Shown here in pieces: positions 559-52,765 of a stretch of DNA of 64,000 nucleotides. Source of the stretch: Alloascoidea africana. Taxonomy: Eukaryota > Ascomycota > Alloascoideomycetes > Alloascoideales > Alloascoideaceae. Position 1 is the first letter of the stretch; each line of letters starts with the position of its first letter. The notes under the pieces are model-generated. The model was not told the DNA's origin and ran no database searches. It saw nothing but the letters and a program-made list of their open reading frames with translations. A program made the position numbers and the translations under genes. The stretch spans positions 186,001 through 250,000 of the forward strand of contig JAKTTT010000022.1 of NCBI GenBank assembly GCA_030581615.1, in the 5' to 3' direction.

Positions 559-3500
559 ATGGCCCTACAGCTGCTACTACTGCTTAGCACCATATTCACA
601 AACATTATAGTGGGTGTAGTTAATGGAATCATTGGCTACCTACTACTGAGGCACTTGAAGAGAGGATGCCAGATATATCATGGTGATCAGCTAGCCACCT
701 GTAATAAAAATCAACAAGACAGAGTCGTTAGGATAATAAGCGAATTTAAAGAGTCCGAACTCATCAACAAGATTGTTGAGGCGCTAGATAAAAGAGACTC
801 TGAAAAAGACATTAGGGAAAGCGATCAAAAGGATACTTCATTATCCCCAGCAAGCAAGCTCCAAGAAGAATACTCATCGAAGCATGCCTCATCAACTCAA
901 GGCATGGCTGAAGAGCTTACCGAGCCTTCTCTGCCAGATGCCCCGTTCCCTCATGCTTACGATACTGAAGCCTCAATGGGGTTCAGAGACGATAAAGGTA
1001 TGTGAGACTATCTATCAACAATACAAGACACTGATATGCAGTTACAAAATCCAATCTATTCAATTTCATTTTACTAATTCCCAATGTCCATCAATTTCCC
1101 ACTTTTTGTAGATTTCCGTAATGAGAGTCTAGAGAGAGACTCTTTTATGAGTCAACTTTTGTCGCCTTACTCTGTGCCTACCACAAGCATGGGCATCAGT
1201 GCTCAGGCACTTCAATCAAGAACATCTGACCAAGAATACAATTATTACACTTCTAATGAATCAGATACAAATACAAACCAACATTACAACAATATGCAAA
1301 ATGAAAGTGGTAACTATGAAGTGGCTGAAAGCACGTTTAATTATCGGTTTGCTTCAAGTTTAGAGACAATTCTTGAAGAAGAAGAGGATATCAGTGGAAG
1401 CGAAAATGAGCAAAGACCGACTGTAAGATATCAAGGAGATGAATCATCAACTCAAAATAGAAACACTATTCCTGTTCAAGAAGCTTTTCCAACATCATCA
1501 GTTCCTTTTTCAAATCAAATCGACATGGAAAGTCGTATCCCCAATCTAAGCAACACAACGCTAGCAGATTACGTTTCTTCTGAAGATTCAACCGCTGAAG
1601 ATGAAGAAGAATTTTACAGAGATTCGCTAGTTGAAAATGACAACAATAGGCAACAATTTAGCCAACAACAAGATAGTATGTCAGCGGAACAAGGCCAACT
1701 AATAACAGATACAATATCGCCAACCGCAACTCCTGTAACAATAACACCTCCCATACCATCTTTAATTTCAGAAACAAGTGGTATTCCAATTCAAATCACA
1801 TCTGCAGTGCCATCTAATTCGCCTTCCAGCTCTCAGCGGAGCTCTGGTTCTGATATATCGATATCGCATTATCAGTCAGCTACACAAATTGACCAATTGT
1901 CGAATAGAAGCGGCTCACAAGGAGATGTGCACTCATCATCTTCTTCTGAAGTCGATCCTAGCGCATTTCCTTTAAATTCTTCATCACATTCGTCTCTCGG
2001 GGAGTATTCAAGACTGCAACCAACAACCACCCCACAGGACAACATCAGCAGAGTTTCATCTATTGCATTCACATCAATTCGATCACATCCGCAGTCAGAA
2101 GGGGTTTTAGAATCTCCCACAAATTTACTGTCCTTCAACCAAAGAGACCGTCTAAATGAACCCGAATATGGCAATCAATTGTTATATTCATCTCCTACAG
2201 CGGACCTTTTGGATGATTATGACTCCAGCGACTCATCTGATAGTGTGATACACTCACCAGCTAGAGCTCAATCATGTCGAACGTCAACTCTCATGTTTCC
2301 ATCATCGTCTAGACACCCTATACCGGATGTCGATCATAGTATAGAAGAGATTGCAACACTTTTTCATACACCAACTCAAGTTGGTATTTCTCCTTTGGAG
2401 ACAGACTCTCCGTTATGGGCTTCACCTATCAATGAACTTTTGCCAGAATATTCCGAAGAAGAGCCAAATTCTAGAATACCTGAGCCAGAATCAAGCTCAA
2501 TAGAACCTCTTTCATCCAGATTCAGACTTCGGTTCACTGGTGACAACGTTCCTCAAGCCCATATAGAATCACCGACCGCTGACCTATTAGCAGAATATGA
2601 GCTAAAGGAAAACCAGAACCAGGGGGTTGAACTTCCTGGAGTTGATATGCTACATCCATTTAGAGCGAGTCGACTACCATCAGAAGAAAACCTCACAAGC
2701 AGCCTTTCCCCACAATTGAGCCTATCTTTAGGGAAGAGAAAATTCAGCGGTTTAAGCCTACTTCCCTCTCCATCAATCTCAACAAACGAAGCATCTCAAT
2801 TATTAACTTCAACTACCGAGGAATTTAATAAGAGCCAACCAAAACTAAAAGAAGATGTTACTTCTCTTCAACCCACTTTTTATAATCTTCATGATAAAGA
2901 CGTTTCGGCTCCTTATCTCAAAGCAAGTGCCAGTACGGGCGATTTACGGATCACCGTTTCTACACCCACCGCAAAACCGCTTAGAAATGCAGACATGATT
3001 AACCTTACTCCGACAAGAATCACTGAAAGAATTCAGCTAGGGAGGTCCACTCTTATGTATTCGTCGCCAAGTTCGTTTAAAGAGAGTTTGGACATACCCA
3101 AATCTTCCAAATCAATGGGCAGGATGAGATTGAGATCTGAGAGTGCGCTTTTTCTTCCATTTCCTTATCTTCTTCCGAAGAAAACGCCATCATCTCTATC
3201 ATTCCGACGGCATTCATCTGCTGCTGAAAGTTTGAGGTTAATGAGCACGCAAAAAACTTTCAAACAGGTAAACATGTCTAGGGATTGGTCACAGAGCGAA
3301 ATATCCACTTCATCTCCAAATCAATTGGAAGAGTACTTGTCTAGTCCAAATACTTTCCCAGAGAATGCTGCACTTCCTCGTTCTCCTGTATTTACAAAAT
3401 TTAGTTCTAGAAGTCTTCCGAATGTTTATGATATGGATGGATTGGGTTACACGCTACCATGCTTAGAAGGAACTGATGGCAAGAATGATAAATTGATGAA

Positions 3501-6500
3501 CGTTCCAGAAAGCATAACAAACCTTCTACTACCCGAAATAAGTCTGACAGAGAGTAAACCGGTAATTTCTAGTAAAGAACCGCAGTCCCCCGGTGATTAT
3601 GGAAGCGATACACTGAGGCATGGTCTCAGTACGGTGGAAAGCGTTATGGAGTATTCTCATGATATTACTATACCAAGAGCCGAACTAAGAGAGCAGAAAT
3701 CCATTCAGTCTGAAATCAAAAACAAACCTCTTCCTCAATTTCAAAATGAAGAAATTGAACTTTCCTTTAATTCTCTCAAAGACATTTCCACATTGGGAAT
3801 GCATCTTTATGGTGCTACTAGGCCTTCGTTGCCACTGCTTTCAGAACCTTCGGGCTATAATATTCTGCCAGACATCAACCAACGGAAAGTTTTTGTTGAA
3901 GATAACTCGCTTCAAAGATATGCTGACTGTCTTGACAAACAGAGTAATGGAGTTCCTGGTTTAGATTTGGATTTCCTACCTGAATCTCCAATTATGGAAT
4001 CCCTTGAAATGCCTATTTCCCCGACCGATATCCAAAAGTCAGCTTCTTGCGGTGTTCAAATTTCAAACACGGAAAGCCTTAATAAAAAGGAAATTCTTCA
4101 ATTCTCACCAGAATCACCCGTTAAGGAAGCCCTTGAAATGCCTTCTTCACCTATTGACAGCAGAAAGTCAGATTCCAGTCGTATTCAATTATCAAAAAGA
4201 GAAAGTCCGGATAAAAAGGAAAATCTGCAATTCTTACCTGTATCCCCAATTATGGAAACCCTTGGAACGCCTCTTTCTCCGATCGACACCCGCACAGATT
4301 CTAGCAGTATTCAGCTGGCAAAAATGGAAAAACTCAATGAAAATGAGGGTTTTCGATTCTTACCTGAATCTCCACTTAGGGAAACCAATGAAATGCCTAC
4401 CTCGGTTACCGATAGCCGGAGAGATACTAGCGGTATTCAATTATCCATGATGGAAAACCGTAATGAAACAGAAAATCTTCAATTCTTACCTGAATCCCCA
4501 GTTATGGAAACGCTTGAAATGCCCCCTTCACCTGTTGATATCCGAAATTCAGATTATAGCCGTATTCGGTTAGCAAAGAGGGAAAGCTCAGATGACAAGA
4601 AGGATCTGGATGCTCTAGAAATTGAGCCATCCGTCTTCCATAATATGGAAGTAATTGAAGATCAAATTAAGCCAACTTCTCATCTAGAAGGACCATTCAA
4701 TTTGAGCAAAGAAGAATATTTTTCTCATGACAGCAAAATCTCAACATTTACCGATTTTGAGTTAGGGAACGAGTCACCAGAAACTTATAAACTACCAGGG
4801 AGTAGCAGCATGATGCTTCCAGGATCTCCCGAGTTAATAGAAGCCAAGTTACATTCAGCTCAATCTCATCAGGGGTCAGAAAGTGGTGCCGATGCTCCAT
4901 GTCTACCTTTTGATAGTGATAGTGATAATGAGAGTGAGGACCACCAATATGAGGATGCAGTTGAAAATCAAGAAATCTCAATTCATTCGAGCTCACTGGG
5001 GCCACTAGAGTCAACGAGAGAAGAATTTACTGTAGAGAACACAGTGGATTTAGAAAAACAGGTTTTGGCGCCTGAAGATGAGACCATTACAAGTTCTCTG
5101 TCAGCACCCGCTGTGGAAGAAAGACCAATATTAGAAGAGGATCATCAGCTCAAACAGTTTGAACAGAAAACTTCCCCAGCGTCACTTCTAGAACAAAAAA
5201 ATATTTCGCCCAATATCAAGGAATCAGTTCTAACTGGTGATAATCTCGTTTTTCTTGATGATTCGGTGGAGGAAATATCCAGCAATCCGCTGAACCCTTA
5301 CCGGTTGGGCACATCTTTCTCGATTGTTAACGAACCGATAGTGCCATCAGAAACCGGACCTGAACATGAACTAATTAAAGATCTCGAGTCAAATGTCTCA
5401 CCTATGTCTGAAGCTCATCAACTTTTGGAATCTATCCAAGAACCTGAAATTGCATCTTTAGTCCCAGGCTCCTTTCCTAAGGCTGAAACAGTGCCTATTC
5501 CTCAGGAAGAAACAGTTGGCATTAAGTCGCCACCATCAAATAAACTAGAAAGTCCCGTCTTAAACACACCCATTGACTATACTGAACCAGCACAATCTAT
5601 TCCAAATATTGTTAGCCAATTGGATACAATGCCAATTCGAATCGAACAAGAAGAAAATAAACCGGTGCTTTCAAAGCGAAAATGCGAAAAGATGGCGTTA
5701 CCCACTTCTTCACTTAGTTTACCTTCAAAGAGCAAACCTATTGTATCCGTCGTTACAAACGTTCCTCGAGGAAAACAGTCTTCTTTCTTTTCTTTGAAGG
5801 ACATTTTGAATGACCCGGAAACTTTGGATATTGCCATTCCTCCACCTGCTAAGCTGGCGCCAACAAAATCTCTCCAAGATGCAGGTGAAAAGAACAACTT
5901 TTTTGGAGAAGGATTTTCATCTTTGAGCAAGGTTCTAAAACCACTAGAACAGCTACCAAGTATGCCAATCAGGCCAATTTCAGTACATACTACGGAAATT
6001 GAAGAGCAGAAGATAGAAAGATATGAGCGGAATCCTCAAAGAAATGAAATCGACGATATTTTCACTGCTCTGAACGCAGGCGAAGAAGCTATCAACTTTT
6101 TGCCTCCGTTTATATCTTTACCACCATCTCCAGAAGGTGAACAACCACTGTTGACAGCTCCTTCAACTGACATTTCAACTCTCGGGATGTCTATGAGCTC
6201 TTTAAACATTCCAACTCCTGTTGATAATAACATTCACGAGTCGTTTACGTTCTCAACCCCATCTGCCGTGATGACAGAACCAATCAAGGAGATTTATGTC
6301 CCAAGAAAGAGCGAATATGGCAATATGGATAAACGCTTTCTTGATAGCAATGCAAGTCTTGTTCCTTCGGTTTCTGAATCTTCCAAAGATAAACTACCAG
6401 AACAGAAAAGTATGTTACCATTATCATCTTCTGAAGAGACGCTGGCCCTTTATAGTCCCCTAATCAGCTCGAGTAAAGAAAAGCGATATGCTTCGCCCAA

Positions 6501-9500
6501 GGCATCAAAGAAAAGAAAACGTGGGCGCGATGAAGATACAGATGAACGGAGATCTACAGGTGATGCTGAATACTCTATGTCTCCCTTTGAAATACAATTA
6601 AGTGATAAAAAATATCTCGAGACTTCAGCTCGTTTATTAGGTCATACACCAGAGTATAAATGGACCAACACAGATAATTCTCCATTACGTTTCGGGGATG
6701 ATGACACTAATATGAGGCCTTTTAGAATGGCGGAGAATTCAGTTGGAATCGAAACAGAAAGCAATGCGTTGAAGCCTCCCATACTATTTGATGACCTTGA
6801 TGATTATGACATTTGGGAGGAAACTGCAATCCCAACCTATCAAGAAGACACCTCTTCAGCCATTCCAGGACCTTCAAACCAAAGATTGTTCTTTCCTGAA
6901 GAGAACAATTGTGAGATTGGGCTTTTTAACCCGCCTTCGCCTCAATTGTCTGTAAAGATTGCCCAAAGCCCTCCAATGATTAGTTACTCTCCTGAGACTG
7001 TGCCTCTTCCCTTTGCTATTCCTTTCTATCTTTCAGTTTCAGGTTTAGCAAAGGGAAATACTGCCGAGACGCAGGAAGTACATAATTTTCTACCCTTTGT
7101 TCCAAAATTAACAACCAATGATGACAAACCTATGGACACTATAGCGCCAGAGTTTACCGGTTCTGAGTTACACCATAAATTTAGATCATTTGAGGAAAGC
7201 CAAAAAAGAGCACTTTTGCCTAAAGCTTTAGGGGATTCCATCGATGAGGAGATAAGTCTATTGGGGATTACACGGAAATACTCTCAAGGAACCTTGCCTG
7301 TAAAAACGGCTGAGACGATTGATAAGAGCATACTGGCAGATTTTTCAGGAGTCGATCACTCGTTGAGGTCGCTGCCAGTCGAACTAAAGGAAGACCGATT
7401 TGAGGATATTCCTCACACATCTGTCGATAAGTTTGATGGCATGTCTCTTCCGGTTTTTGAAAGTTTTGAGAATTGCCAACTTCCAGCTTCTCCAGGACTT
7501 GATGCTACCGAGGGAATGCAAAGCAGCTTTAACACAGGTATACTTACTGAGAAATCACCAACTCTGGATTCAATGAGGATTACACATCAAAACTTACAAG
7601 AATCTTTACCGAAAACATTTAGGGCCATCGATAAGAACATACTAGCAGATTATTCAATCATTCATCATTCTTTGAGGTCATTAACAGCAGAACAGAAGGA
7701 AGAGCCATTTAATGATATACCATTTCTGTCTTTTGAAAGCTTTGAGGACTGTCAGCTTCCACTTTCTCCGGGATCCATTTCTAATAAGGAAATACAAACT
7801 AGTATTGACCCTGATTTACTCACCGAGAAACCCTCGACATTGGAATCTTTGAGAACTACACGTCAATACTTACAAGAGTCTTTACCAACAAAAATAACAG
7901 ATGATACAAATATCGATCTCTCGTTGGAGTCGTGTCCAGCAGAACAGACCGAAAAGACACTTGATGATATATCTCTTCCGTCTTTTAAAAGTTTTGAGAA
8001 CTATCAACTTCCAGCATCTCCAGAGCATGATGCTATTAAGGGAGTTCCAATCAACTTTAATGCTGATAAACTTACTGAGAAATCTGTGACTCTGGAATCT
8101 ATGAGGATTCCACGGCAATACTCACAAGGATCATTACCAACAAAAACGACTGATAAGAACATACTAGCAGATTTTTCGGGCATTGATAATTCGTTTTTGT
8201 TTTCGGTAGAACTGAGGGAAGACGGATTTGATGATATGCTTTTCCCATCTGCTGAAAGATTAGATACTATGCCTCATCCGTTCTATGAAAACTTTGAAAA
8301 CTCATTACTTCCAGTTTCTCCAGAACTCAATAGCACTGAGGAAATGCAATGTACCTTTAATGCTGATATACTTACTGAGAAATCCATGTCTCTGGAACCT
8401 ATGAGTATTGCACGTCAATATTCAGAAGACTCTTTACCAACGAAAACGTTTGGGACGATTGATAAGAGCATGCAATCAGATTTTTCAGGCATTGATCACT
8501 CGTTGAGGTCATTGCCAGCAGAACAGGAGGAAAAAAGATTTGTCGATAAGCTTTGTACGTCTTTTGAATTTGTTGAGAACTATCAACTTCCAGTTTCTCC
8601 ACCACCTAATGCTGCCACGGGAATGCAAGTTAACTTTGACGCTGATATACTCACTGAGAAACCCGCAACTCTGAAATCTCGGACACCCTCTTCCCCGGAC
8701 TTTATTGGAGCTGGACTTTATTCTCCTAAATTGGTTGTCCATGCTCGTGATATTTCAACCAGTGTGTTATGGGAGACAAAAGAAGCACCGGAACTTGTGG
8801 GACAAAATCCAGAATTGATAGAAACTTGTGAAGAAAAACTTAATACCGAAAAGTTTTCTGACTTGTGCTATGCTCCAATTATGTCTACGATTGAAAAACT
8901 CACTGATGCTTTGCATATTCACGATGGTGATGTTCTATTTCGGCCAGAACAAATGGGCAATAATGATACGCTTCAGATTGATGTGCACCTTGAATTACAT
9001 GACAATCTTGAATTGCCGGAGTCTCCACTTTCACGCGACGTTAAGGACGGCCTTCAATTTAGTGAGACTCTACAGACTGAAAACTCTTTTCGATTAGAGC
9101 GATGCGTGGGCCAGGCGAAATTTGATGATATCCCTCAAACAAAGTTCAGCGAGGCTGTTACCAGAGATGCCTTAAACTTATGCAGCGAGGCAGGAGGATC
9201 TGTATTGGGCAGTAGGGATGTGCTTGCATCGAGCCGGGACAACCCCTTATTCATGCAGAGGTCAACGAATGACGATCTTATTCCTCTACCTCCCTCTCCA
9301 ACCAGCCCTCTCATTTTTGAAGAAAACAACCTCAACCCTATTGACATTCATCTTCAACTGAGTCCTTGTCCGGATAATGAACTTCTAAAGTTCTCAGGAA
9401 AGGGTAAAGAGCTGAATGAGAGCATGCTTTTGACAACAGAAAAGCAAGAGCCAAATCTTACTAGTCCGACCTTTCCTCTCTATGGACCTGACTATGACCA

Positions 9501-12500
9501 ACCTGAGACCACACCTCTTCCTAGACCGTATAATATTGCAAAAGATGCTTATCAGGATTCGTCGCCGTTCTTTGGGTCCTTGAAGGATAAGACAGCCCCC
9601 TTGTCTAAAGAGTTTGATGAATATGCTTCGATACCATTCATCCTCGACCAGTATGACGATGACAGCGTTTACCAAAAATCACTTTTCAGAGAAGATCTAC
9701 AATCAGACTCATTTTCCGATAGTGAACTACATCACCCATCTCCATTGTGTAGCGAACCTGGAAGTATCAGTCTTGGAAAAGGATTATTCCGTCAATCGGA
9801 AACGGGAACGCTTTCGAAACAAGAACATTATGAAGGTTTGATTTTGAAAAATGATTCAGATCTTTCTTTAACAGAGAAAAGGAAACATTTGGAATACCTT
9901 GATTTACCAGAGTCGCCTTCTCAACGTCCTTGTGACATCCTAGAAGAAAGGGGAACTTGCAATAAACCACTAACCAGTGCAACAAATTGCGCTTCGGAGC
10001 TAATTTCTTCACCGGTAGCAGACGACAATCGACAAATAATCTTTGTTCCACAGAATCTTACAGAGTCTGAAAGTACGATTCCAGAACTTTTCGACAATAG
10101 AACGTTTAGCTCTGCTTTAATTTGGAACGAAAGCAAGGAAGATCAACCCATCGCTGGCATGAAACCTGAAGATAGAGAAGAATCAGAATTAGCAATTCTC
10201 ACCAAGTTACCAGAAGAAATTCCAGTCCCAGTTTCCATTGAAAATCTACGACGCGCACAAGACTTGGACATTAAATCAGGCTTCAACATTGTCTTTGAGA
10301 AAGAGTTTCATAATGATCTTCCAATTAGTTTTCCTAGGAGTGCTGAAGTCAAGATTTTGCCATTGCCATTTTTCAAAGTTCACAATATGAAAGCTGAACT
10401 ATACGAAGACCGAAAGCGGGTTGAGAAAGAATGCCTGCAACCTCTTTTGTCAGAATCACAGATTGAAGAAATTACTACAATCCCAAGTTTAGAAAACCAA
10501 GGCATACTGTCCACAATATTACCATCTTGGTCACATTTTAAACCGATGGATGAATTTTTACAGGGGTTAAGATTTGAAATTCAAAGAGATGACAATGAAT
10601 TTTTACCTATACATGAAAAAGTGAAGGAAATTGAGAAAGAAGCATTGAAAAGCTATGACGAATTTGAAACAGCTGATGTACCACGACTTCAGTTTCTGGA
10701 GCAAGAAGACAATGATATTGCACATGAAAAAGTTTCTCTACAACGCTCCAACCAGGTCTCTATTTATTCTGATTCCAATGTTTTGAAATCTTTTGAACTC
10801 TCAAGAATAGCAGAAGGCAGCCAAATATCTCCTATCAAACCTTCCGCGCTGTATAAAACACGCCCGTTAGGTGTCTTACAAGACAGTTTTAATCCTAGAT
10901 TTGGGGGGACGGAAAACCTAAAACACGCGCTGATTGAACTTCAAAAAGAAGTTGGCATTCTGAAAAACCAAAATCTATACAAATCTGCTGGAATCGATAC
11001 TTTACCGTCAAGGCCACAAATTATGGATGATGGGCATGTACTGCCTGGAGAAAGAGAAAGCAGCCAAGTTACAACTCTCCCGATGTCACCCGAGCTTCTA
11101 TCAGAGGTCAGCTTTACTATTCCGAGAAAGGTAACGTCAATGCTAAAAGGAAATGACTTGGTTGATATTGAAGTCCTCAATCCCGTACAAGACAAACATA
11201 TTGCATATACAGGTTCCGAAATGTTGCAAATGTCGAGGGTAACTCCATTACCTAGATCACCGACCTTGGATGTGGCAGAGAAACGTTTTCTATTAGATGG
11301 CTCTGAAATAATCAATGACCCTTTAACGCTTAATCCCATCCACTTTCATGAACCGGTGAAGAGCATGCCTAACTACAACGAAACGATTGTGGTAGATTCT
11401 TTCCCCAAACTAACAAACTTGTCCACAATTCAAGAGGCTCAGCTAAAAAATCGAATGTCCTTTGACAATAAGTTTTGTAGAGAGTTGCTACCATCAGGAA
11501 TCACTACAAGACCAGGCATTAATTCAATTTCAAAAGATATACTTGATCATAAGTTTATTACAACTGATCTTCTACCAAGTTCTCCTATTTCCTCGTGGGA
11601 AAGTGAAGCTGCTTTACGAGAAAGAAGTGGCTTGTCTTTGAACAGTGAAGATGATTTCCCTCGATACATCAGGAATATACCAAAAGAGGAAATTAGCGGT
11701 GAGAGTTTGCTTCTAAACCAAGCGGTCTCAAGCCACAGAATCAGTAAAGCTGACCTAGAAATACCAGCAGTTTCTTTGGAAAGAATGGAAACTATACCAA
11801 ACATTGTTTTTGATTATAAGTCTGATACTTTTGACCGTCTCCCATCTTCTCCTGTGTCAGAGCCTAGAAAGGTGGTGATCAAAAAGAAACTTGACATTGT
11901 TGATGATGATTTCTCTGTTCCTCGATCTATAAAATTGAAACTGAAAGAAAAGATAAAAGAAGAGCATGAATGTCTAGTTCCAGATGCGCCAAGCGAAGAT
12001 TTCAGTGAAGTGAGGTTGGAAAGCCCATTAATTCCATCGAAAAGGACGAAAACTATGCAAGACGTTGTTTCCGATCGGAAAGCTGATATTGCCGGTAAGC
12101 TCCCGTCCTCTCCCATAATCAAACCTACAGATAGAACGATTTCCAGCAAACCGAGTCTCGTAGTTGATCGATATACTATTCCAAGACACATGGATATTGA
12201 ATCAGAAGCGGAAACAACAGTTGGACTCTTGCCTCTCTCAACAGATACTCCAAGTGAAATTTTCATCAAGGATAATCTAGAAAAATCAACAATTCCCTTC
12301 GAAACCTTTGAGACTATCCCAGATTTTCTTGCTTACAAGACTGATTTCATCGACAACCTTCCATCCTCTCCCGTCTCTGAACATCGAAATGAGTCTCTTT
12401 CGCGAACTGCCTTAGATTCCTACGAAATTATCAACACCTTACCTTTAACTAGCAATTATAAAAGTTTACAGAAAAAACTTCTATTTGATCTCAATGATTC

Positions 12501-15500
12501 CCAAGTGCCAAATGAGATTCACCTCCCTGAATCGCCTGCGCCCGAAACAATCAAATTTGAAGAAGTGTTTAGTAAAGGTCAAGCGTCTGTTCTCATTCAT
12601 CCACGTGAAAGCAGCATTCACAATATTATACAAAGCAAAAAGCTCGATATATTAGCTGACCACATTTACTTACCTGAGCAGGAAAATGACATAGAGAAAA
12701 CGATAACAGAGGAAATTTGCTCTCTGTCGTCGCCATTTGTGCATTACCCTGGTGCCCTAGAAAAGACTGCTGAGGTTCAGAATAGAGATCAGTCAGGTCT
12801 GCTGAGGCCCTCTAGAATTTTTGATCTGGAAAACCGGAAACTAGAAAGTGCAACTGAAGAGAAAAGATTTACTGATAAACTTTTCAACCATACAGAGTGG
12901 ATTGTACCACTTGGAGGCAAGAGCCTTAAAGAAATACCTCAATCGAAGGATGTCTTTCATGCTTCTTTACAGGAAATTTTAACCACAGCGATTATAGAGG
13001 AAGTAGAGATAAGAGCAAAATTGGAAAGAGCTGTTTCTTTTCCTGAGTTGTCTTTACCTCTTAGTCCGAAGGTATCAGATGGAAATAATTTATTATGCGG
13101 GCCAAAGATATACGATAGCTCTGGTGGTTATATACCAGAGCTCCCATCAATTTCTCCTCTGGAAAAGACCTTCAAGCATAAAAAACTAAACAAATATACT
13201 GATGATGAAATTCTGCTGCCTCACAAAGATTTTGAACCAAAGACGAACCTCTCACAAGTTCTCAGCTTTGAACAGAATAAAAGCATACTTGACCCCACGC
13301 TAGAACCTTTACGAAATAGACCCGTTTCAGAAGTACCCGAATTTCAGAATACCACCGACGAGGGATTAATTCTTCCCACTTCCCAGATATTTCAATGGCC
13401 TACGAGAAGGGAAGAAGCTCATGCTTTACCTGTATATACAAGCAAGTCGAATGTAGGATCCAAACTTAAAAGAAAGCTTGAGGATGGTTACTACGATAAC
13501 AATCGATTGCAATATGAGATGGAACAGCTCCAAAATAAGGATCTTTTATTTAACGACTTGCGATTAAAGACTACACAATCACTATTTGCTGGACTCAAAG
13601 ATCACCAGAAAATTGGATTGATCGCAGATCCGCTTCCAAAGAGCCCCTCAGAAGTTATACCAATGGTATCGAAAATGGAGCAAAGCCAAGCTTATGTCGT
13701 AGCTGAGAAACTAGATAGAGACTTTTTATCAGGACTCGAAATCAACCGGGAGAAGGCATGTGAACTTTTGAGGGGACCAAGCCACGATCTAACCCTGATC
13801 ATGGGCAATTCATTATCAGGACCGACTTCATTTGCCACTGAAGAAGCAATCCCCAGCCTTGGAGAATCTATAAATTATCACAAGGTGAGCAACCAAGGAT
13901 TGCCATTAGATCAACATGTGGCGTTCAAAACGATAGATTTTATTCCTCTATTGAATCGAGAAGTACGTTTTGAGAAAGGTTTGGACATTTTGGATGAGGC
14001 CACTTTCAAAACTTTTACAGACAGCAACCTGCCTTCTCCTTCTCCGAGGAGCTTGGACATAGTGCTTCAACAGTCACCCATCAACGAAGATGTTTTTACT
14101 CAAGCCCTATCTTATATTCAGAAATCAGAATATGAGAATAAGCGTCTACTCCCAGATCAAGTCGCAGCATCTCTAAGCTACAATGAAGTTGATCTAGAAG
14201 TACCAGCAGTTCCTTTGGAAAGAATGGAAACTATACCGACCATTGCTTTTGATTATAAGCCTGATACCGTTGACCGTCTCCCATTTTCTCCTGTGTCAAA
14301 GCCTAGAGAGGTGGCGATCAAAAAGAAACTTGACATTGTTGATGATTTCTCTGTTCCTCGATCTATAAAATTGAAACTGAAAGAAAAGATTAAAGAGAAG
14401 CTTGCATGTTTAGTTCCAGATATTCCAAGCGAAAATTTCAGTAAAACGAGGTTGGATAGACCATCAATTTCATTGGAAAGGATTAAAACTCTCCAAAGTA
14501 CTGTTTTTGATCACAAAGCGGATATGGTTGACAACCTCCCGCCGTCTCCTATTGTAAGGCCTACAGATAAGACGATTGCTAACGAAAATAGGCTTCAAAT
14601 ATTTCATCATGAAGTTACCGTTCCTCGATCTCTAGAGCTCAAACCGAAAGAGGAAAGAAGCAACGAGAGTTTTTGTTTGAATCAAGCTGCTCACACACAA
14701 AGTTTCAGTGGAACTCTGATGAGATCCCCTGTAATTATAAACTCATTGAAAGCTATTCTAGAGCCTGAACCTGAATTCAACCCTGTTATTGTCAATAATT
14801 TACTGTCAAAACTTTCAAACCTGATGGTTAAATCTGAAGATCGCTTCTTACCAATTAGCATTGAAGGTCCTGGCTATGAAAGCGTAAACCTTAAACCAAA
14901 AGAGGAAATAAATGAAATTTTGCTTCTCGATCAATTGACCTCAAGAGAGGTAGTAATGGAGGCTGAGTTGACAAAGTCAATACCTCCTTTCAAAAGATTC
15001 AAAGATATATCAAGCATTGTACCAACTTATAATCCCCAAGTCCCCGACAAGCTCCCTCCATCGCCAGTTTCTAAACCTAGTGACGAGTTGATCGTAAAAG
15101 AGAGGCCTGATGTTATTAAGGACATATTGACTACTCTTCGTGACATGACCTTTGAACCTGAAAAGGAAATAATTGGTGAGCGTTTGCTTTTAGCCTCTGT
15201 TACCTCAAGCGAAACTTTCAGTGAGGCTACTCTTGAAAGACCAACAATTCCTTTCGAAACTCGAGCAAAAATTGCAGATACCTCTTTCAATGTCAGACCT
15301 GATACTACCGACAATCTGCCGCTCTCTCCAGTTTCTAATCCTAGAGAAATGATAATTCCTCATGAACCTAGTTTAATCTCTGAAAACCAGTATCTTCCTC
15401 TGTCTGTCTTCAACCGAAAACGGGAAGTAACTCAACTAAAACCTTTTATTCCTGTTTGCGAAGAAAATCAAATTCACCTGTCTTTGGCGTCTGATAAAAA

Positions 15501-18500
15501 AGAAGTGTTTTTGCCACGACAAAAGCTTATCTTTGAACCTATCACTTCCTCTTTTGAACTTCCTCAAGCTTCTAAAGTAGCAGTTAAGCAAGGGCTTACA
15601 CCTGTGACTGACAATGGAGTAGCTGTGGACAGGGACCAGCTGTGCCCTATTCTTTCTTCGAGGTCTAATGATGGTATGGCTTTATCGTATGAACAAACTG
15701 GCCGTCTTCAAGATTTGCCTCAGCCATCGAATCATTTGCTGAAATATGGCGATACATTAGAAGAACCTGTCACCGACAGTGAGCACACTGTTAGTCCAGA
15801 TTTCTTGAAGCCTCGACCCTCAAAGAATATTTGCGAGCTCAGTTTGACACCAGACAATACTGATAAAGATATGCTTAGTCCACTCCAACAATATGGCGTC
15901 CAGGTTGCTGATGATTCTAAGGATTTTGATTTGGATCTCTACTTCGAACCGCGTGTATTTCACGATCCTCTTGCTGACATCTCTGATTTGCCTCAATCTC
16001 GATATTTCAACCAAGAAAGTGGAACTACATTAGCAGTAACTCGCTTAGAGACTACAAAAGTCAAATCTTTACCTTATCCTGATTCTGTTCCAGGAAGCCA
16101 CATTCAACCAGAGACATTGGCAGTTCATTCAGTGGAGGTAAGCGAACTTCCTTGTTTAACGCAGCCAAAGTTAGCTAAAGATATTCCCTATTTGAGATCA
16201 GATAGCAACACACCGCTTGACTTTGTAAAGGATACAAGATCACAAGACAAAAGCGTGGGATTACCTGAAACTAGGGATATTGTTGGGCCTACAGCACTGA
16301 GGAATCTAAATTCTTCCTTGCAAAAACAAAGGTGCTATGCAGATACCCTTCAGGAACCTAGGAGCACGAAAGTCTTTGAGTGGAGCTTTTTGAAAAATTC
16401 TCTTCGACAAATTTCTCATGTTGAAAGCGGTTTGGGTCTATCTGTCAATGAGATTGAAAAGCAATACAAAGATGAGAGTGATTCAGCAATCTTGAAAAAA
16501 TCAGATACCAACTATTCAAGTTTAGAAGCGGTGATATTCCCTGAAATTGCTGATTCTAGAAGTATACCTCAGCATCTAAGTTCCAGACACGATGGAATTC
16601 TATCATCCAAGTTTGATCCCCAGTTTAAAACGGCTAGCCTCTATATCCCGAGCTCTATCTCTAAAAAGAAACTTGAGCTGGAGTTCTCAGAAATGTCTAA
16701 TAAGTTGCTTATTCCGGTTGAAGAAGTTCAACACTCCGAAGTTGATCAGCACCAAAAACTTCTGCTAAGAGTGAATGATAAGGTGATCGATGAAGATTGT
16801 CTTCAATCACTTCTGAAAGAAACTTATGGAGCAGTCGAAACAGATTATGCCAGCAATTTGCCAGCGTCACCTAAAATTTCCGAGGTTTTGGAGGAAGATC
16901 TTTATAGCCCACAAAAAGAGATTGGTTCTTCCCTCTCAACACTTTCCGAATCCTATAAAAGCGAAAATGGTTTGATAAACAAAACAACAGAGCTTTCAAC
17001 ATCCCAAATCTCCGATAACAGCACTCTTCCCCAAATTCAAACAGTTAACTTTAAGAAAGAGGACAAATTACAAAGCGTGCTTACTTCAATCTCCCCTGTG
17101 TCAGCGGTATCTGAAGAAGGGAGATCTTACAGAGATTTATACTCTACAGCTAAGATACTGTCAAACTATGATTTACCAGCTGACGCAACAAAAGGAAACG
17201 ATCATTCTGAAAATGTTTGCTTACCTGAAGATTCGATTTATTCTGTAAAAGAAGAAGAAAAGACGCATGGCCTTAGAGACTCCTCCTCTCCAGCAAGTTC
17301 AACCAACCTGGAAAGATTTGAGACAGCCAGTGAGCCGAATGATACTTTACCTCCATCTCCTGTGAGGTTAGATATGCATGATGATAGAAAATCGTTCCCT
17401 ACTACCACAGTTAGTGATGTTGATCGAAAAGATGCTATTGGGGAAAATTTGGAGCCAACTACTAGTTCGCCCTTGAGTTCTCCAATACTTAATACACGAC
17501 TAGCGGAGAAGGATATTTCCAAAACACAAATGCCTAAGATGGAAAAATCTGTTCCTAAGGACCAAGGAAAATCAGAAGTGAAATTGGAGCCTGTAGCTAA
17601 ATCTGAATTACCGCTATCTTTGGTTCATGAGAAACCAATACAATTGGCAGAGCCTAAATACGAGCCAAAACTTCAGCAGGAGGGAACAAATGAAAAGAGC
17701 ACACGAGTTGCTCTCGAGGTACCAGCTGTGCCAGCGACGAGTGTGAAACCGAAAGATCTGATCGAAACGACTTCTAAAGATGATAAAATAAATGACCAGG
17801 ATAAAGAGTCTAAACTGCCAGGATTGCAAGAATTGCCTGGCAAATTAAGAAAAGTTCAGCCAAGAAAGGACCTTGAATATACTGGTACAACTTCTCCCTC
17901 TGAACCGGGATTGGTTTCAAGACCAATCATTAAACCAAGAGCTGAGAAAGATGATATGAAGCCGCTGGTTGATACTAAACCGAAACCAACAATTCGACCT
18001 CCAAGTAGAGAAAAGAGTCTGACTGCTAAAGAAACTGATAAAGGTAACCATAGGGTTTTCCCAGAGATTTGCAATTTTGTTACTGACCTATATCTTCTCA
18101 ACTTAGATTCGAGCGTTAAGGAAGCAGATAAGAAGCATCCAAAGTACAAAAAGAAAATTAGGCCTTTGGTATCGTCTTCAGTTGAAAGTAATCCTCCTAT
18201 CCGGTCGTCTACGTCTCAGACGGCAAATTTGGAGACAGTTGATCAGCAAACCAGTCCAATTCATGAATATATGCCAAATGTGGAAGCATCATCACAAACA
18301 GAAGCGAAATCGGAAAATCTTTTATCACGAGGAAATAGAAGAAAATTAGATGGGAAGCGATCAGAATTATCGACTGGTATGCATTTTAGTATGCCGCTAT
18401 ATCTTTTTCTCATCAAAACTAACGTGTTGATAGATGATGATGATGAAGAGCTATATGAATCAAAGATTATTCAGGAAGAACATTTGCCCATTCCCCTTAA

Positions 18501-21500
18501 TTTGCATAAAGAAGTTCGTCATGGACCAGCACGAGATTTAGTTGACGAAAGATCAGATCAACAAACTGAAACTTCAGTCTCGTGTGTGTTATTGGACTCA
18601 GAAAACGAGGAGGATAACGTTAGAGAAAATGAAGAGTGTATTCACTTAACCACAATAACGGAAGCCGAGTCAGATACAGAAGATTATGAGCTACAATACC
18701 TTTCTGATGATAGTACAAGCACGCTTTTAATTGATTCTGGAACTGAGCCAGCGCCTCAAATTATTCGTCTCAATATACATGACAACGTTCAAGTCGATAC
18801 AACAAGTAGTGAAGATGCTGAGCAGATGCATGGAAGGTCAATGATGGATAAATCAACTTCTATCAACGTGACCGATTCATCAGTTCAAACTGAAAGTCAT
18901 CGGTCTTTTGCAAAAGGTTATAGAGGTATGTTATATCAGCAAAAACGACTGATATCCTACAATTACTAACTAGTTGATAGAACCTGAGATATTTTCAGTT
19001 TCTAGTCTCGGTATAATGCAAAAAAATGAGGTTGCTAAAATGGAAGAGTCTAGAGTAATGAGGATGTCAATTTCTGCAAAAAACACAAGCGAAATGTCGT
19101 CTGACGATAGCGAATTGTTCTACTTTGAGACGCATCAAGGAGACTCAAAACCATTTGTAGGAACGCAACCATCAAAGCTCCCTGAAAAATTGACTGTGGA
19201 AACTGAAAGCTTAATCAAAAAGATTAAGCCAAAGGACGCCAATGATGCCACTCCATTGGAGAATGTTTCTCCATCAACTGTGTTGAACTATCTCGATTCA
19301 AATATGGATCTACCAGTGACACCGCCTCAGCCCAGACAAGGTTTTGAAGAATCCCCTGATACTGTCAGAGAGACCAAGAAACCACCACAAGATCAAGTTC
19401 TAAAGACGCAACCTCTACCAGACGAGTTGATTGTTGTTTTCACTGATGGTTCGTATTCTGATGACAAGCCAATAAAACCAAACGAACTTTTGAAAAAGCG
19501 CGGCACAAAAGGAGATGATAGTGATGCAATCAACGTTGAGATTGGTCCTAGTCTGGCTTTTTCAAGTAAGCAACCAAGTGACAATGTTCACTCGGAAGTA
19601 ACCGTGAATAAGGAAAGTTTAGCCAGAATAATTGATTCACAGCCAGCAATGGATGATGCTCTAAATTTGAAAAAAGTGGCAAGGCAAAAGCGAAAATCTG
19701 ATCTGAAGCGAGTAGACCTCTCGCATCCTCAAGAAAAAGAGTCCAGTGTCTCATTAAAGAGGCCCACATCTCCTTTACGCAACGAATTAAAGATTGATGA
19801 AAATGATGATTTTTCCATGTCTATTGAGATTCCCGTTTCTGGCGCTTCAGCCAAGAAAAAGCTAAAGAGAAAGTCTACAGATATTGTGCCATCATCTACC
19901 CAGCCTATATTGCCTTCTGTTGGCATGAAAGAAAAATCATCTGAACCTCTATTTGTTGTTTCACCATTGTCTACTCCCTCAGGTTCTCCAACCCGAGTAT
20001 CTAAATTGCCCAGCAAGAGGTACGCAGTGTACTATAACCAATCTGCTGAAAGCCTTGTTTCAACAAGCTCTCTATCTTCAGCCGATTCACTATATATTGG
20101 AGTTACAGACTCAAAGGACAATCTAAACTCTGGTATATTCTCGGGTGTTACAATCAAGGAAAGAAAATATAAGGGCAAAAGGATTATCTACAGTGATGAG
20201 AATTTATCACTTGCCTCATTCAAGAGTGCAAATATTCGATCTTTGGACAATTTATCGCAAACCTCCAGTTTAAAAGGCAGAAATATGAATGGAATGGCAA
20301 GTTATAAAGCGGCTAGTTTGTTTGCCGACACTACTGGTGCTTCCAGTGAAGCAGAAAGTGAAGACTATTACGATTCTGATAATGAATATCAATTTTCTTC
20401 AAACTTTTTGATCAGATATGTTTACGAGCACCATATCCTTGACTCACCATCTTGCGATTATGTAGATTACGATGATATTCTGTCGCAAGAAAGCAAAAAT
20501 ACATCGACACTTTCATTGGAAAAGCTTTATGTTGACAACTATTCAGAATCACCGGATGAATCAATTGAAGAGCGTTCGTTGTTACGCTTGGCAAATGGCC
20601 GTAATAACAAAATTAAAAGGCTAAGAGAATTAAACCGCGAGGAGATTAGCCATTTAGGAATCAAAGAACGACAATCTGCTGCTGTTCTCTTTAAGAGCGA
20701 AGGAACAGCAATGATGAGACGAAAACGATATAAGGAAGCTATAAGGAAATACACAGAAGGGCTTCGCTATTATAACAATTCTTCTTTGTATTCAAATCGA
20801 GCAATATGTCATTTATACTTGAAACAATTTGATAACGCCATGGACGATACCTTAAAATCAATTGATTGCGATGGAGTGAACGTAAAGAGCTATATCAGAA
20901 GCTGTGGTCTTCATGTCAGGATTAGAGATTACGAAACTGCTTTCAACCATATTTCAAAAGCGCTTTTCTTGGACAGCAAAAATCAGGACATTATCACAAA
21001 GTTAAAATCTGTCCGAGTTAAGTTAGTTCAAAAATATTTTGCAAGACTAGCAGAAAAAACAAAGAAAAGTGGTGTTGTCACAAAGCCCATGCCTAAATAT
21101 CAAATTGCTTTCAGAATGGACTTTTGGCCATTCATACGATTGCCAAAAGTGCTGCTTCTTGATGAATCTAACGTCGGAACAGTTGGGTATTACTTGAGGC
21201 TGGGAATAGACTTGCTTGAAAGATGTGAAAGCAAGTACCTGACTGAAGCGATAAATTATTTTTCTTGTGCAATCAACATGGGAACAAAATACTCATACAT
21301 TGCTTATGATTATCGTGCCTGTGCAAAGATATTCAATGGACAGCAGGATGAAGGGTTGCTTGATTTTGAAAAGGCTATTGTTCTCAATAACAGAAGTGAG
21401 CGAAGTCAAATCGCCAGTATTGTGAAAAAAGCGCTTTGTGAAACTTTTGATTCCTACTACAAAAAGATTGGCAAGTCACCTTGCAAAGAGTGGTCTGTTG

Positions 21501-22459
21501 TGAATAAACGAACAAAGGTGCTAGAAAGCCACGTTTTCCCGAAGCAGCTGCCTGATGCAATTAGTATTGTTGATGAAGTGAATGCGCTCGATGGATATGA
21601 ACGCTTCCTTGCAGTTCAATATATCAAGGATAATCACTACAGAGAAAGTGTATTCAAAAGCGTCGTGAAGGAAAGGTGGCAGCATAAAGCTAAGGAATTA
21701 GAGTCTCTTGCAAAATTTTACAATCGAACAGAAGATGGCCTAAGGATAGAAGCGTACCTTGCAGTTTTCTATTTTGAAAATGAAGAGTACAGCAAAGCCA
21801 GTGAAATCTTGGAAAGGCTGGTTCTTGAAGAGACCAACGAATCTATCTATTTGGCATTATACGTTCAAGTTAGCAGATGGCAATCAAGCAAACGAATTGA
21901 GCTTGTCGAAAAAGCATTAAAATGCTCTGCGGCAAAGATCGATCCCATGTACCTTGTATCATATGGGGAAGTTTTGTACACTAATAACAGGGACGTTGAG
22001 GCACTCAAAGCATTTGATAAAGCTCAAGATTTGGTAAAGTTTGTGAAGAAAAAGAGTCGGCTTGTCTATATGGTAAATGATATTCTCTGGGGAACTTTGA
22101 CTGCTGCTGGCAGACACTTGAAGAACGTTGTTCCGGAGAATTTTGAAAATTTGATGAAAAGTTTCGTCTCGATTGATGAAGATAATCCCGTTGTATACGC
22201 ATACTTGGGATACTATCGAGCATTAGAGGGCAAGTTCGGTGAAGCAGCCAAGCACTTTGATAGATCTTTGGAGTTGACTATGGAGCCCCGAAGTGGAATG
22301 GGATGGGATATGTTCCATAACAGAGAAATCTGCAGAATGGGAGCTGAGATCATGAACAATTGGGAAATGGGCTCTCATGTTAGTAAGAGCATTGTTGAGG
22401 ATCTTGTAGACGAGGGTATTTTGAAACCCGTACAGAATTATAAACTGAATAAGTTGTGA
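559..22459 (+). CDS. Giant membrane-anchored TPR protein, spliced, about 7,200 aa
   Basis: I do not recognise a named orthologue. Proposed exons are 559-997, 1112-18043, 18107-18376, 18434-18925 and 18981-22459 (last acceptor could be 18998). Together they give about 7,203 residues, and all four introns are phase 1. Residues 5-31 form one hydrophobic segment followed by the basic patch RHLKR, which by the positive-inside rule predicts a signal anchor with the rest of the protein in the cytosol. Residues about 150-6,600 are Ser/Pro/Glu-rich and probably disordered. They hold three internal repeat families and about 30 LPxSP motifs. From about residue 6,610 to the end there are TPR-like helices, the first three close to the co-chaperone class (FKSEG, YSNRA, VKSYIR). 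Basic NLS-like clusters lie near residue 1,945 (KKRKRGR) and in the last exon. The length exceeds any yeast protein I know. The exons are certain as coding sequence; the function is unknown. A membrane-tethered scaffold or chaperone-recruiting tether is inference. Confidence 0.88.
998..1111 (+). other. Intron 1 of the giant gene
   Basis: The donor is GTATGT at 998, a TACTAAT branch site lies near 1073, and the acceptor is TTTTTGTAG ending at 1111. Splicing joins G to AT (phase 1) and fuses the membrane-anchor exon in frame to the giant exon. Unspliced RNA would stop at 1005, two codons past the donor. Confidence 0.9.
3967..4605 (+). repeat. Tandem repeat A in the giant gene, 5 x about 43 codons
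   Basis: Five consecutive units cover residues about 1,099-1,311. Each has the pattern FLPESP, then E-x-LEMP, then SPxDxR, then a short IQL-x-K segment and a charged tail. Units have diverged at many positions but align without large gaps, as expected for an old tandem expansion under constraint on the Pro/Ser core. Confidence 0.85.
7261..8690 (+). repeat. Tandem repeat B in the giant gene, 5 x about 85-115 codons
   Basis: Five units cover residues about 2,197-2,671. Recurring blocks in order are RQYSQxSLPTKT, IDKxILADFSGIDHSL, ESFENYQLPxSP, and a segment ending DxLTEKxxTLESM. Units differ by small insertions and deletions of whole codons. Confidence 0.85.
11751..12011 (+). repeat. Repeat C, copy 1, inside the giant gene
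   Basis: This block (residues about 3,693-3,780) is nearly identical at DNA level to 14191-14442, including long exact runs across the KKKLDIVDD and VPRSIKLKLKEKIKE codons. Copy 2 lacks one GAT codon. The high nucleotide identity marks a much younger duplication than repeats A and B. Confidence 0.85.
14191..14442 (+). repeat. Repeat C, copy 2, inside the giant gene
   Basis: Second copy of the block at 11751-12011, about 2.4 kb downstream in the same orientation and frame (residues about 4,507-4,590). It carries the same ERMETIP start, one LPxSP motif and the same basic KLKLKEKIKE segment. Weaker related segments flank both copies. Confidence 0.85.
18044..18106 (+). other. Probable in-frame intron of the giant gene (63 nt)
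   Basis: The donor is GTAACC at 18044, a TACTGAC branch-like site lies near 18081, and the acceptor is CAACTTAG ending at 18106. The length is a multiple of three with no stop, so the reading frame runs straight through. The 21 residues it would add are hydrophobic and unlike the flanking charged sequence. The junction is phase 1 (G|AT), like intron 1. Confidence 0.65.
18377..18433 (+). other. Probable in-frame intron of the giant gene (57 nt)
   Basis: The donor is GTATGC at 18377, a branch site ACTAAC lies near 18418, and the acceptor is GTTGATAG ending at 18433. It is 19 codons long, without a stop, and translates to a hydrophobic stretch inside an acidic low-complexity region. The phase-1 junction again splits a GAT codon. 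Confidence 0.75.
18926..18980 (+). other. Last intron of the giant gene
   Basis: The donor is GTATGT at 18926 and the branch site is TACTAAC at 18964-18970. The acceptor is either GATAG ending at 18980 or TTTTCAG ending at 18998. Both keep phase 1 and differ by six codons. Without splicing, translation stops at 18969, before the TPR domain. Confidence 0.85.
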
Positions 22460-22887: not shown

Positions 22888-24012
22888 TTATTTATCGCCA
22901 AGTCTGTGACCTTTACCCCACTTGAAAGAAGATATAAATCCCGTGGTCGAGCTACTGGATTGTGTTCTATTGTTTCCGAGACGAGATCTCACGCTTCCAG
23001 ATCCACTCTGACCTCCTTCTCTAACAGAAGAGGCAGCAGGCTTGAAAGCTGAACCATATGCACGAGAGGAGGCTCGGTTCTGGTTATAGGAAGGGTCAAA
23101 TCGAGAACCATGCGGTAGTAGTTTATACAAAAACTCTGGGGTCTTGATAAGAGATCTTCGAGATGAGGAGGAGGAGGCAGTTGAAGTAGAAGATCTCAGA
23201 GTTCTCACCGTTCCGCCGTTCCTTGTGTTTGTGGTATTTGAATCTACACTAAGGGGATTCCTACCACCATTTTCTAACCATTGGTAAAACGACGCTGCAA
23301 AGATTCCAATAAGGCATAGCAGAGCATTTGTCCGTCCTTCAACCAATAATCTGAAGAATAAAACGACGTATGGTAAGTATTTGGCCTTGATCTTGATAAA
23401 GTAGAACATTACAATCGTCTCAAGGTTCTCTCTCGACCAAGTATAGGTTAAGGAAGACAGTAGAGGAACAAACAGAGAAAGAGTAGCGTTCGGTTCGAGA
23501 TAAGTAGCCAGAGCACTGAATGAGTGGGTAAAAGTCCCCGTTATCAACAAGTAGTAGGCATAATCTGCTGTGACAGAATTAAATTTTGTCTTTTCCAGGC
23601 TCTTGCTATATGTGTACACTATTGTTAACCAGTTAATTAGTTAACTTTCATTTTTCAAAATATGTCCGGATCAATACTCACTCATGTAAATTTCCATTAA
23701 TGTTTGCAGAGGTTGTGAAAACGACACGAAGAAAGGTGAGACTATAGGAGGTCAGATTCAATATTCTGGGGTCAAAAACTACACAAAAACAAACCTACAG
23801 ATTCTCCAAAGCTGGAGTTTAGATCGTACCAGTTGCCAGTCACCGACAAAGAATCCGAGGCTGGTCAAGCCAAGGGCAGTACTGCACTGGGTCCCAATAG
23901 CTCCACCTACCAAAACCCGAGTAACTTCAGGAACTTGTAATATAAATCTGTTTTGTGCGCAACGTCATTTCAGTTGGTTAGTGTCGGTCGCTCTGCCACT
24001 ATACCCGGACAT
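22888..24012 (-). CDS. DFM1: Derlin family ER membrane protein, Dfm1-like, four exons
   Basis: Derlins are rhomboid pseudoproteases that help move misfolded ER proteins to Cdc48. Proposed exons, in transcript order: 24012-24005, 23947-23799, 23741-23682, 23618-22888, giving 315 aa. Spliced, the start reads MSGFILQVPEVTRVL, typical of Derlins, followed by the family WR motif (LQLWRI) and several membrane segments. The C-terminal tail is Ser/Arg-rich and ends in a clear SHP box (FKWGKGHRLG), the Cdc48/p97-binding signature that Dfm1 carries. The first coding exon has only 8 nt. Its intron (donor GTATAG, branch CACTAAC) removes a stop and fits phase. Intron 2 uses the unusual donor GTAGGT. Each junction was chosen because it restores the conserved Derlin reading. 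Identity as a Derlin is strong; DFM1 rather than DER1 rests on the SHP box. Confidence 0.88.
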
Positions 24013-34423: not shown

Positions 34424-35089
34424 TCACGCGCTCTTTTCGTGCCGGTGCGCGAACATCAGATGCTCGGCCTCGCCAGCCGTCCGCTTGACCTCCTCCTCCA
34501 CGACGACCCCGAGGCCCAGCAGCGCCGTCTCGTCCAGGATCCGGTACAGCACGCGCGAGCGGCTGGCCGGGAACTTGGTGGCATAGTACTGCGCGGCGTA
34601 GAAGTGGAGGGCCCTCAGCAGGTCGGAGTTCGGCAGGTCTTTTTCTCCTTCGATCGGGAACTCGCGCATCAGTTCGTACTCGATGTCGCTGTCATCGCTG
34701 TTGTCTTCTTCTTCATCTGCTGCTGCGGCTGCTTCTTCTTCTGGTTGTCGTTCTTCAGCGCGCTGGCGGCCGTGCTGCTCTGATCTCTGCCGTTCCCGTT
34801 TCCTCTTCTTCACCTCCCGCAGAAACTCCTGTCCTTCACTGGTCGCCCGGAATCTTTCGGCCAGGATCTCGTCTGCCGAAATCGGCTGTCCCATAGATCT
34901 CAAATCTCTGTCAGGATCCGGCTCAGAGGCGCTGGCTGTGCCCTCTCCGGAGAAGAATCTGTGGAACGGCTTCAGCTTCGTCGACACTCCTCTTCGAAAC
35001 TTGTCGTCCACAGCCTCATAGACCGTGGCGTGCAGTAGGTCGTATGGTCTAGCATTCTCAACTGTGCCCGTCGGCAGTTTGCCCTCCAT
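34424..35089 (-). CDS. RRN10: RNA polymerase I upstream activation factor subunit Rrn10-like
   Basis: In yeast, Rrn10 is a small subunit of UAF, which binds the rDNA upstream element with Rrn5, Rrn9, Uaf30 and histones H3/H4. The 221-residue product shares two blocks with yeast Rrn10 in the same order: ISADEILAERF (yeast VSADEVLAEKI) and LRALHFYAAQYYATK followed by LDETALLGLGVVVEEEVK (yeast LRVVHYYATQ and FDETSLITLGLLIEKWVK). Between them is an added acidic and charged low-complexity insert rich in Glu, Ala and Arg, which explains the length above the yeast protein. The start is the only ATG near the first conserved block. Only 177 bp separate it from NCL1. Confidence 0.75.
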   Translation of the reverse strand: MEGKLPTGTVENARPYDLLHATVYEAVDDKFRRGVSTKLKPFHRFFSGEGTASASEPDPDRDLRSMGQPISADEILAERFRATSEGQEFLREVKKRKRERQRSEQHGRQRAEERQPEEEAAAAADEEEDNSDDSDIEYELMREFPIEGEKDLPNSDLLRALHFYAAQYYATKFPASRSRVLYRILDETALLGLGVVVEEEVKRTAGEAEHLMFAHRHEKSA

Positions 35090-52439: not shown

Positions 52440-52502
52440 GCTGCTTTTTTCGAATAAATTCTGGCGTGGCGTTCTTTTCGCGGCCAGGGGTGTGATTGGG
52501 GG

Positions 52503-52510
52503 TTACCCGG
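52503..52510 (+). promoter_or_regulatory. Reb1-type site TTACCCGG in the RFA1/RAX2 promoter
   Basis: Exact octamer about 115 bp upstream of RFA1 and about 255 bp upstream of RAX2. Confidence 0.6.
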
Positions 52511-52713: not shown

Positions 52714-52765
52714 TTGTTGTCTCAGAAGCAGTCTCCTGCTGAGCTTATTCTCCCATATCACCATC

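Follow-up and report, generated by a model that had tools for sequence, protein, structure and literature searches.

A giant gene of the yeast Alloascoidea africana predicted to join an N-terminal membrane segment through a long PELS-rich linker to a Tom70-type domain

Does a gene of Alloascoidea africana that runs from position 559 to 22459 encode one giant protein, and what might such a protein do? The gene lies on the plus strand of a 64,000-bp stretch of contig C22 (JAKTTT010000022.1, 186001-250000; hereafter the window) in a genome of 23.2 Mb in 138 contigs. An earlier sequence-only reading had described a membrane anchor, a disordered linker and a C-terminal tetratricopeptide repeat (TPR) domain in a protein of about 7,200 residues. 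Our analysis points to a five-exon gene whose product would join a predicted membrane anchor, a linker of 6,364 residues and a Tom70-type domain, and we tentatively read it as a membrane-anchored, long-reach docking protein with an elastic leash. We prefer this reading to its rivals while granting that it may well be wrong.

Reading frame and exon structure

Two open frames cover the locus, one at 1084-18969 (5,961 codons) and the other at 18974-22459 (1,161 codons); the former bears out the claim of an uninterrupted frame of about 6,000 codons. The TAA that closes the giant frame (18967-18969) is the TAA within the branch site TACTAAC of an intron, and the break between the two frames is therefore best read as an intron. 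A fusion created by an assembly or frame error was rejected, since the stop coincides with the branch-site TAA and removal of a consensus intron brings the two parts back into frame. When combinations of donors and acceptors were tested, a five-exon model was obtained that encodes 7,203 residues (computed mass about 809 kDa) and ends in a single stop, in line with the earlier claim of flanking exons joined in phase. Four splice models have one terminal stop (7,190-7,203 residues), the other three acceptor choices yielding 7,190-7,197 residues. If made as one chain, the protein would be larger than any Saccharomyces cerevisiae protein known to us. Its size, which had been said to lie beyond that of known yeast proteins, is indeed extreme for a yeast but has a fungal precedent in leashin, judging from extracts of the published account (PMC2690989).

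Exon 1 (559-997) contains the start codon, the membrane segment, a basic flank (RHLKR) and an acidic tail, and terminates in phase 1 at the donor GTATGT at position 998. Intron 1 (998-1111; 114 bp; GTATGT, TACTAAT, TAG) harbors an ATG at 1084 in frame with the giant exon, so that an unspliced transcript would give a product without the anchor. The giant linker exon, exon 2 (1112-18043; 16,932 bp), is open throughout and is followed by intron 2 (18044-18106; 63 bp; donor GTAACC), exon 3 (18107-18376), intron 3 (18377-18433; 57 bp; donor GTATGC) and exon 4 (18434-18925), with exons 3 and 4 defined by the splice model, their open frame and their codon score. Introns 2 and 3 are optional because the frame runs open through both of them without an in-frame stop; their retention, the solution picked by a simple gene finder, gives 7,243 residues. 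Intron 4 (18926-18980; 55 bp; GTATGT, TACTAAC, TAG) is required to link the giant exon with exon 5 (18981-22459), which encodes the end of the linker, a family-conserved segment and the TPR domain up to the stop.

The frame used is free of stops in every exon, compared with 1-291 stops per exon in the two alternative forward frames, and its codon score is in each case higher than that of either alternative. Along the giant exon, it scored best in 11 of 11 segments of 1.5 kb, a score in which stops are penalised. Because synonymous codon usage is only weakly biased in this genome, it was uninformative for coding status. Donor-branch-acceptor signatures occur five times in the window, versus a mean of 2.0 and a maximum of 6 in first-order Markov sequences; of these five, one falls within the giant exon and two combine the branch site of intron 4 with other donors. 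Splice signals alone are weak evidence for the gene model. Considered as a whole, the model holds at the level of the sequence.

The nine modelled introns of the giant gene (four) and of two paralogues described below, C8 (four) and C36 (one), are all in phase 1; two introns that the gene finder placed upstream in the region of a third paralogue, C3, were set aside as unsupported (phases 0 and 1 by exon-length count). With phase-1 introns in front of the TPR exon, exons there could therefore duplicate or drop out while the frame stays intact. In the giant gene and in C8, the modelled introns mostly cluster right before the TPR exon. A QT[EQ] motif near introns (2 versus 0.8 in the giant gene; for QTE, 5 versus 1.5 in the giant gene and 5 versus 1.7 in C8) was weak and was not used.

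The predicted membrane segment covers approximately residues 3-31 (565-651; limits set by eye) and reaches a Kyte-Doolittle hydropathy of 2.2 over 19 residues. As previously claimed, it is single: no other membrane-like stretch is present in the 7,203 residues, and it sits at the extreme N-terminus. Exon 1 has no stop in the frame used; the two alternative forward frames have 8 and 14. Among 20,000 Markov sequences, 7 produced an exon ahead of exon 2 that starts with ATG, has 100 codons or more and ends in phase 1 at GTATG[TC]; none of the 20,000 produced one with a membrane segment as well. No part of the gene model is less certain than the anchor exon, yet this exon stands above chance expectation. 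That exon 1 is a separate small gene is unlikely; it terminates at a donor of the right phase.

The C-terminal domain and its relatives

The TPR domain noted earlier is indeed present (residues 6605-7173; 20660-22366), but it is of the Tom70 type and not an unspecified TPR domain. Its best curated profile is TOM70, its match to the genome's own Tom70 proteins spans 451 columns, and fold matches 1-8 are all Tom70 or Tom71, with 14-16% identity in the fold alignments. By these matches, the modelled domain is a full-length Tom70-type superhelix. A generic TPR protein was ruled out by match length against two controls, L030 (89 columns) and L029 (115 columns), which we labelled Sti1-like and Cns1-like, respectively; the comparison took in these two of five loci with TPR hits and left out L028, L031 and L032. 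The dicarboxylate clamp reads K-T-N-K-R instead of K-N-N-K-R, at five positions that we placed on the genome's own Tom70 and that presumably form the clamp, so that four of the five residues are kept. We take the kept arginine to be Arg171 of yeast Tom70, a mapping made without alignment to that protein.

For the TPR part, the same genome contains three strong paralogues (41-45% identity), and the family thus numbers four genes or more. One of them, C8 (L012-L014; G000:C8 389932-374902, minus strand), is modelled by the gene finder at 4,919 residues with a Tom70-type C-terminus and in this model shares the layout of the giant gene: one exon runs to 3,294 codons, the four introns are short and in phase 1, and the final exon, which carries the TPR domain, has 1,122 codons, versus 1,159 codons in the giant gene. 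Long N-terminal tails are also found in C36 (L011; modelled at 2,226 residues) and in C3 (L015; an open frame of 1,620 residues whose start is not fixed). Linker length varies about ninefold over the four genes, from several hundred to 6,400 residues, with limits that we set ourselves. Two database proteins also fall in the family clade: P0001 (50% identity) has an N-terminal segment in common with C3, as judged by eye, and P0002 (63% identity) is grouped with the giant gene at a support of 88/87. The family clade is supported at 100/100 in a tree in which 2 of 11 inner branches are well supported and 7 are left open.

Directly in front of the TPRs lies a family-conserved segment (20060-20659), recognized by eye in an alignment of the four family genes and the two database proteins by the motifs SADSLYIG, SSxFLxxYV and SxDExxxExSL. 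It is common to most members, with SADSLYIG being poor in C36. A database search that requires shared 5-residue words recovered no relative of the TPR domain among the 1,572 candidates of 2,378-7,565 residues that were scored, and three among 8,000 scored candidates of about 638-2,030 residues, namely P0001, P0002 and one remote TPR protein. The genome also encodes two ordinary Tom70 proteins (L021 and L022; 65% identical) and two Tom70-like TPR proteins (L019 and L020; 586 and 588 residues, respectively) that are seemingly soluble, with no anchor discernible by eye at their start.

The linker and the surroundings of the gene

The linker had been described as a low-complexity, disordered region of about 6,450 residues. 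It is indeed long (6,364 residues); it is acidic (net charge -354), its composition is led by serine (12.6%), leucine (10.2%), glutamate (9.4%) and proline (8.3%), and TOP-IDP classifies it as disordered. It is not featureless, as it contains LPxSP motifs and three repeat arrays. LPxSP occurs 30 times (three times as LPASP), compared with about 0.5 copies (0.57) expected in shuffles and 1.6 (maximum 8 in 500) when the dipeptide make-up is preserved, and it tops the enrichment among 4-residue patterns. The SP dipeptide is enriched as well (98 versus 67). While 17 of the LPxSP copies fall within the arrays, the 13 outside them compare with 0.42 expected (maximum 4 in 1,000 shuffles), or with 1.1 (maximum 5 in 500) under preserved dipeptide make-up.

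Array A (3922-4563) consists of five units of about 42 residues, four with LPxSP and the other with SPESP; Tandem Repeats Finder marked 4214-4523 within it. Array B (7267-8703) has five units of about 92 residues, each with LPxSP. The boundaries of both were taken from profiles built on the arrays' own units. Array C is split into a first block (11527-12489) of three full units of about 87 residues plus a partial unit, with LPxSP, and a second block (14143-15447) of four full units with LPxSP; the partial unit, which was outside the profile seeds, was detected at an independent E-value of 1.7e-5. With the motif masked, mean pair scores were 71 for A, 152 for B and 94 for the seven full units of C, compared with at most 22, 30 and 29, respectively, in 200 shuffles each. 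The profile of one array matched the others no better than shuffled controls. When the linker was compared with itself by Blast, no off-diagonal pairs appeared at an E-value of 1e-4, although masked-unit comparison and profiles reveal the arrays. Lag scores along the linker peak at 84-92 and 170-172 residues, as computed without a shuffle control.

The ratio of non-synonymous to synonymous substitution (dN/dS) among repeat units is 0.55-0.58. Motif columns are 0.9-1.0 conserved, versus 0.30-0.46 elsewhere in the units, a contrast that is biased and partly circular because the units were selected by the motif; at least one repeat unit appears by eye to have LPISI in place of the motif, in a double-length gap between units 4622 and 4794. 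Three linker segments tested had no relative elsewhere in the genome, and the segment of the linker encoded by exon 5 matched C8 and C36 solely in the conserved part before the TPRs. Likewise, no database relative was found for residues 1-5000 of the giant exon among 4,644 scored candidates (again by shared 5-residue words). In the C8 linker, unlike that of the giant protein, the commonest residues are S, E, T and K.

The 3' neighbor of the giant gene is a convergent Der1-like gene (22891-23619, minus strand). About 15 kb beyond it lies a Hrd1/synoviolin-like RING gene (38079-39077, plus strand), so that the window contains two genes of the type active in endoplasmic reticulum (ER)-associated degradation. 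Further genes resemble Rrn10 (34427-35089, minus strand), Trs85 (45280-47427, plus strand), Rax2 (52496-56836, plus strand) and Pta1/symplekin (58804-61329, minus strand), a gene content in keeping with a budding yeast. ARAGORN, run with the bacterial code setting, found no tRNA genes in the 64 kb, and Rfam gave no match above the gathering threshold there.

Possible functions and comparison with known systems

How might such a protein work? Because basic residues come after the N-terminal segment, this segment may be a signal anchor in an organelle membrane (the mitochondrial outer membrane or the ER), with the remainder of the protein in the cytosol. The linker would form an entropic, elastic leash. 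Simple polymer formulae for 6,364 residues give a contour length of 2.3 µm, so that the micrometre reach previously envisaged applies to the fully extended chain; as a relaxed coil it would measure about 45-95 nm. At its tip, the TPR superhelix would capture a peptide or membrane partner on another structure, and the protein might thereby tether or position organelles; Tom70 connects mitochondria with the ER through Lam6 (extracts of PMC7583919). LPxSP could provide repeated sites for docking or proline-directed phosphorylation, through which a partner is recruited along the leash or its stiffness is tuned. The tether idea raised by the sequence-only reading remains plausible and has been sharpened, with a function proposed from the sequence.

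Several observations weigh against this proposal. The first clamp asparagine is kept in both of the genome's own Tom70 proteins and lost in six of six family members, which may therefore no longer dock chaperones in the manner of Tom70. A shared fold by itself shows no function. LPxSP occurs twice in C8 and is absent from C36 and C3; therefore, the code is not a family trait. Disorder of the linker is not clear either, since FoldIndex is borderline, with 36-65% of windows in residues 148-6560 scored as unfolded. The anchor fares likewise: no second copy of its exon was found elsewhere in the genome, no equivalent was seen near C8 and C36 under the criteria used (upstream space bounded by divergent gene models), and no membrane-like stretch (maximum hydropathy 0.76-1.16) was found in C8, C36, C3, P0001 and P0002, taken as modelled or as open frames. 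Because no equivalent was seen near these paralogues or elsewhere in the genome, the anchor would be either peculiar to this member or an exon called in error.

The last of these possibilities leads to the strongest rival, which we consider less likely than the anchored leash but still worth serious weight. Here translation would start downstream of exon 1, for instance at the in-frame ATG at 1084, and the product would be a soluble giant scaffold whose linker serves as a platform for multi-site phosphorylation or docking on a Tom70-like peptide-binding domain. The five relatives without a membrane-like stretch, the anchor exon not seen near C8 and C36, and the SP enrichment of the linker are all consistent with this scheme. 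It leaves aside, however, that exon 1 is open and coding-like with a perfect donor in the right phase, and that a branch site and an acceptor precede exon 2.

The protein might instead be a Tom70 derivative that acts as a receptor for mitochondrial import or for chaperones, its TPR domain picking up precursors bound to Hsp70/Hsp90 at a long distance from the outer membrane. This reading would fit the Tom70 fold, the signal-anchor-like N-terminus with its basic flank and the four kept clamp residues, among them the arginine that we mapped to Arg171. We regard it as unlikely, given that the first clamp asparagine is replaced throughout the family, that two ordinary Tom70 genes are already present, and that a spacer of 6,400 residues has no evident use in import.

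Ordinary drift seems improbable as well. In this case, N-terminal disordered tails of a Tom70-like family would have lengthened by slippage and duplication and have no tethering role, a scenario that the ninefold range of linker lengths, the duplications evident in the repeat arrays and the lack of homologues for three linker segments in the genome and for the giant exon in the protein database would suit. Against drift stand the LPxSP copies kept in other contexts outside the arrays (13 versus 0.4-1.1), the dN/dS of about 0.56 among repeats and a frame that is open over 5,600 codons.

The anchored, long-reach docking protein that we prefer invites comparison with leashin (LAH/Lah), the Woronin body tether of Pezizomycotina (PMC2690989, PMC5345055), whose literature is cited here from extracts of the articles. 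The first prediction for Neurospora leashin had 10,821 residues, but the same study went on to show two proteins; leashin homologues have 5,936-7,480 residues (600-800 kDa), and the Neurospora linker is poorly conserved, acidic and rich in proline, glutamate, leucine and serine (PELS) (PMC2690989). The leashin repeats comprise 33 copies of PEEVELPASP in R2/R3 and, in R1, repeats around LPVDEDLDLLPALPES, and leashin has been proposed as an elastic tether across about 200 nm (PMC2690989). The protein described here is alike in its giant size class (809 kDa), in an acidic, poorly conserved PELS-rich linker with the same leading residues and, as far as the published consensus tells, in tandem repeats with an LPASP core, which is matched by its top motif LPxSP. 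Aspergillus fumigatus Lah also possesses a predicted membrane span, located near the C-terminus and preceded by a coiled coil (PMC5345055). The ends differ: leashin has a Woronin-body-binding N-terminus, a C-terminal coiled coil, a span and a putative outer domain, while the yeast protein has its span at the N-terminus, a Tom70-type TPR superhelix at the C-terminus and no C-terminal span. Because the ends differ and leashin is reported from Pezizomycotina only (extracts of PMC2690989, PMC10023807), the protein appears on present evidence to be a leash that may work like leashin and not a member of the leashin family. That it is a true leashin homologue, which links a peroxisome-like or septal organelle to the cortex and whose ends have diverged past recognition, is very improbable despite the shared size class, PELS composition and LPxSP core, given these differences, the taxonomic range of leashin and the failure of a search of limited sensitivity to find any leashin-sized protein with this TPR domain.

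More speculative, and in our view unlikely, is the idea that budding yeasts evolved a leashin of their own, a Tom70-type receptor on a PELS leash in which LPxSP would be the docking code of the mould leashin linker, read by an ascomycete-wide partner (a kinase, a phospho-reader or a septal or cortical scaffold). If this idea were true, the TPR end, having lost a clamp residue, would hold a new ligand instead of chaperones. We found no description of such a protein in the openly licensed PubMed Central literature, judged by the titles and abstract openings of the matches listed. Should the protein be made as one chain, the mould-type giant organelle leash would not be confined to Pezizomycotina, and a yeast leash tipped with a Tom70-type domain would have come to the same linker composition and the same LPxSP core. 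This makes it possible to test for a reader of LPxSP on giant leashes and for organelle spacing set by an elastic disordered linker, and the four-member family offers a natural series of linker lengths, from several hundred to 6,400 residues.

As a proposed extended elastic segment, the linker also resembles the PEVK spring of titin, by analogy alone; the same analogy was made for the PELS region of leashin by its authors (PMC2690989). Closer to home, L019 and L020 match the profile over 510 and 207 columns, respectively, but they are open frames of 586 and 588 residues without a long linker, and they keep the clamp asparagine. From Tom70 and Tom71 themselves, proteins of about 600 residues whose anchor adjoins the TPR domain directly, the giant protein differs in the roughly 6,400 residues that part the two, in its 14-16% identity and in a clamp that has lost its first asparagine, and it coexists with two ordinary Tom70 proteins. 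With them it shares a predicted N-terminal membrane segment and a complete TPR superhelix; Tom70 also acts in ER contact via Lam6 (extracts of PMC7583919).

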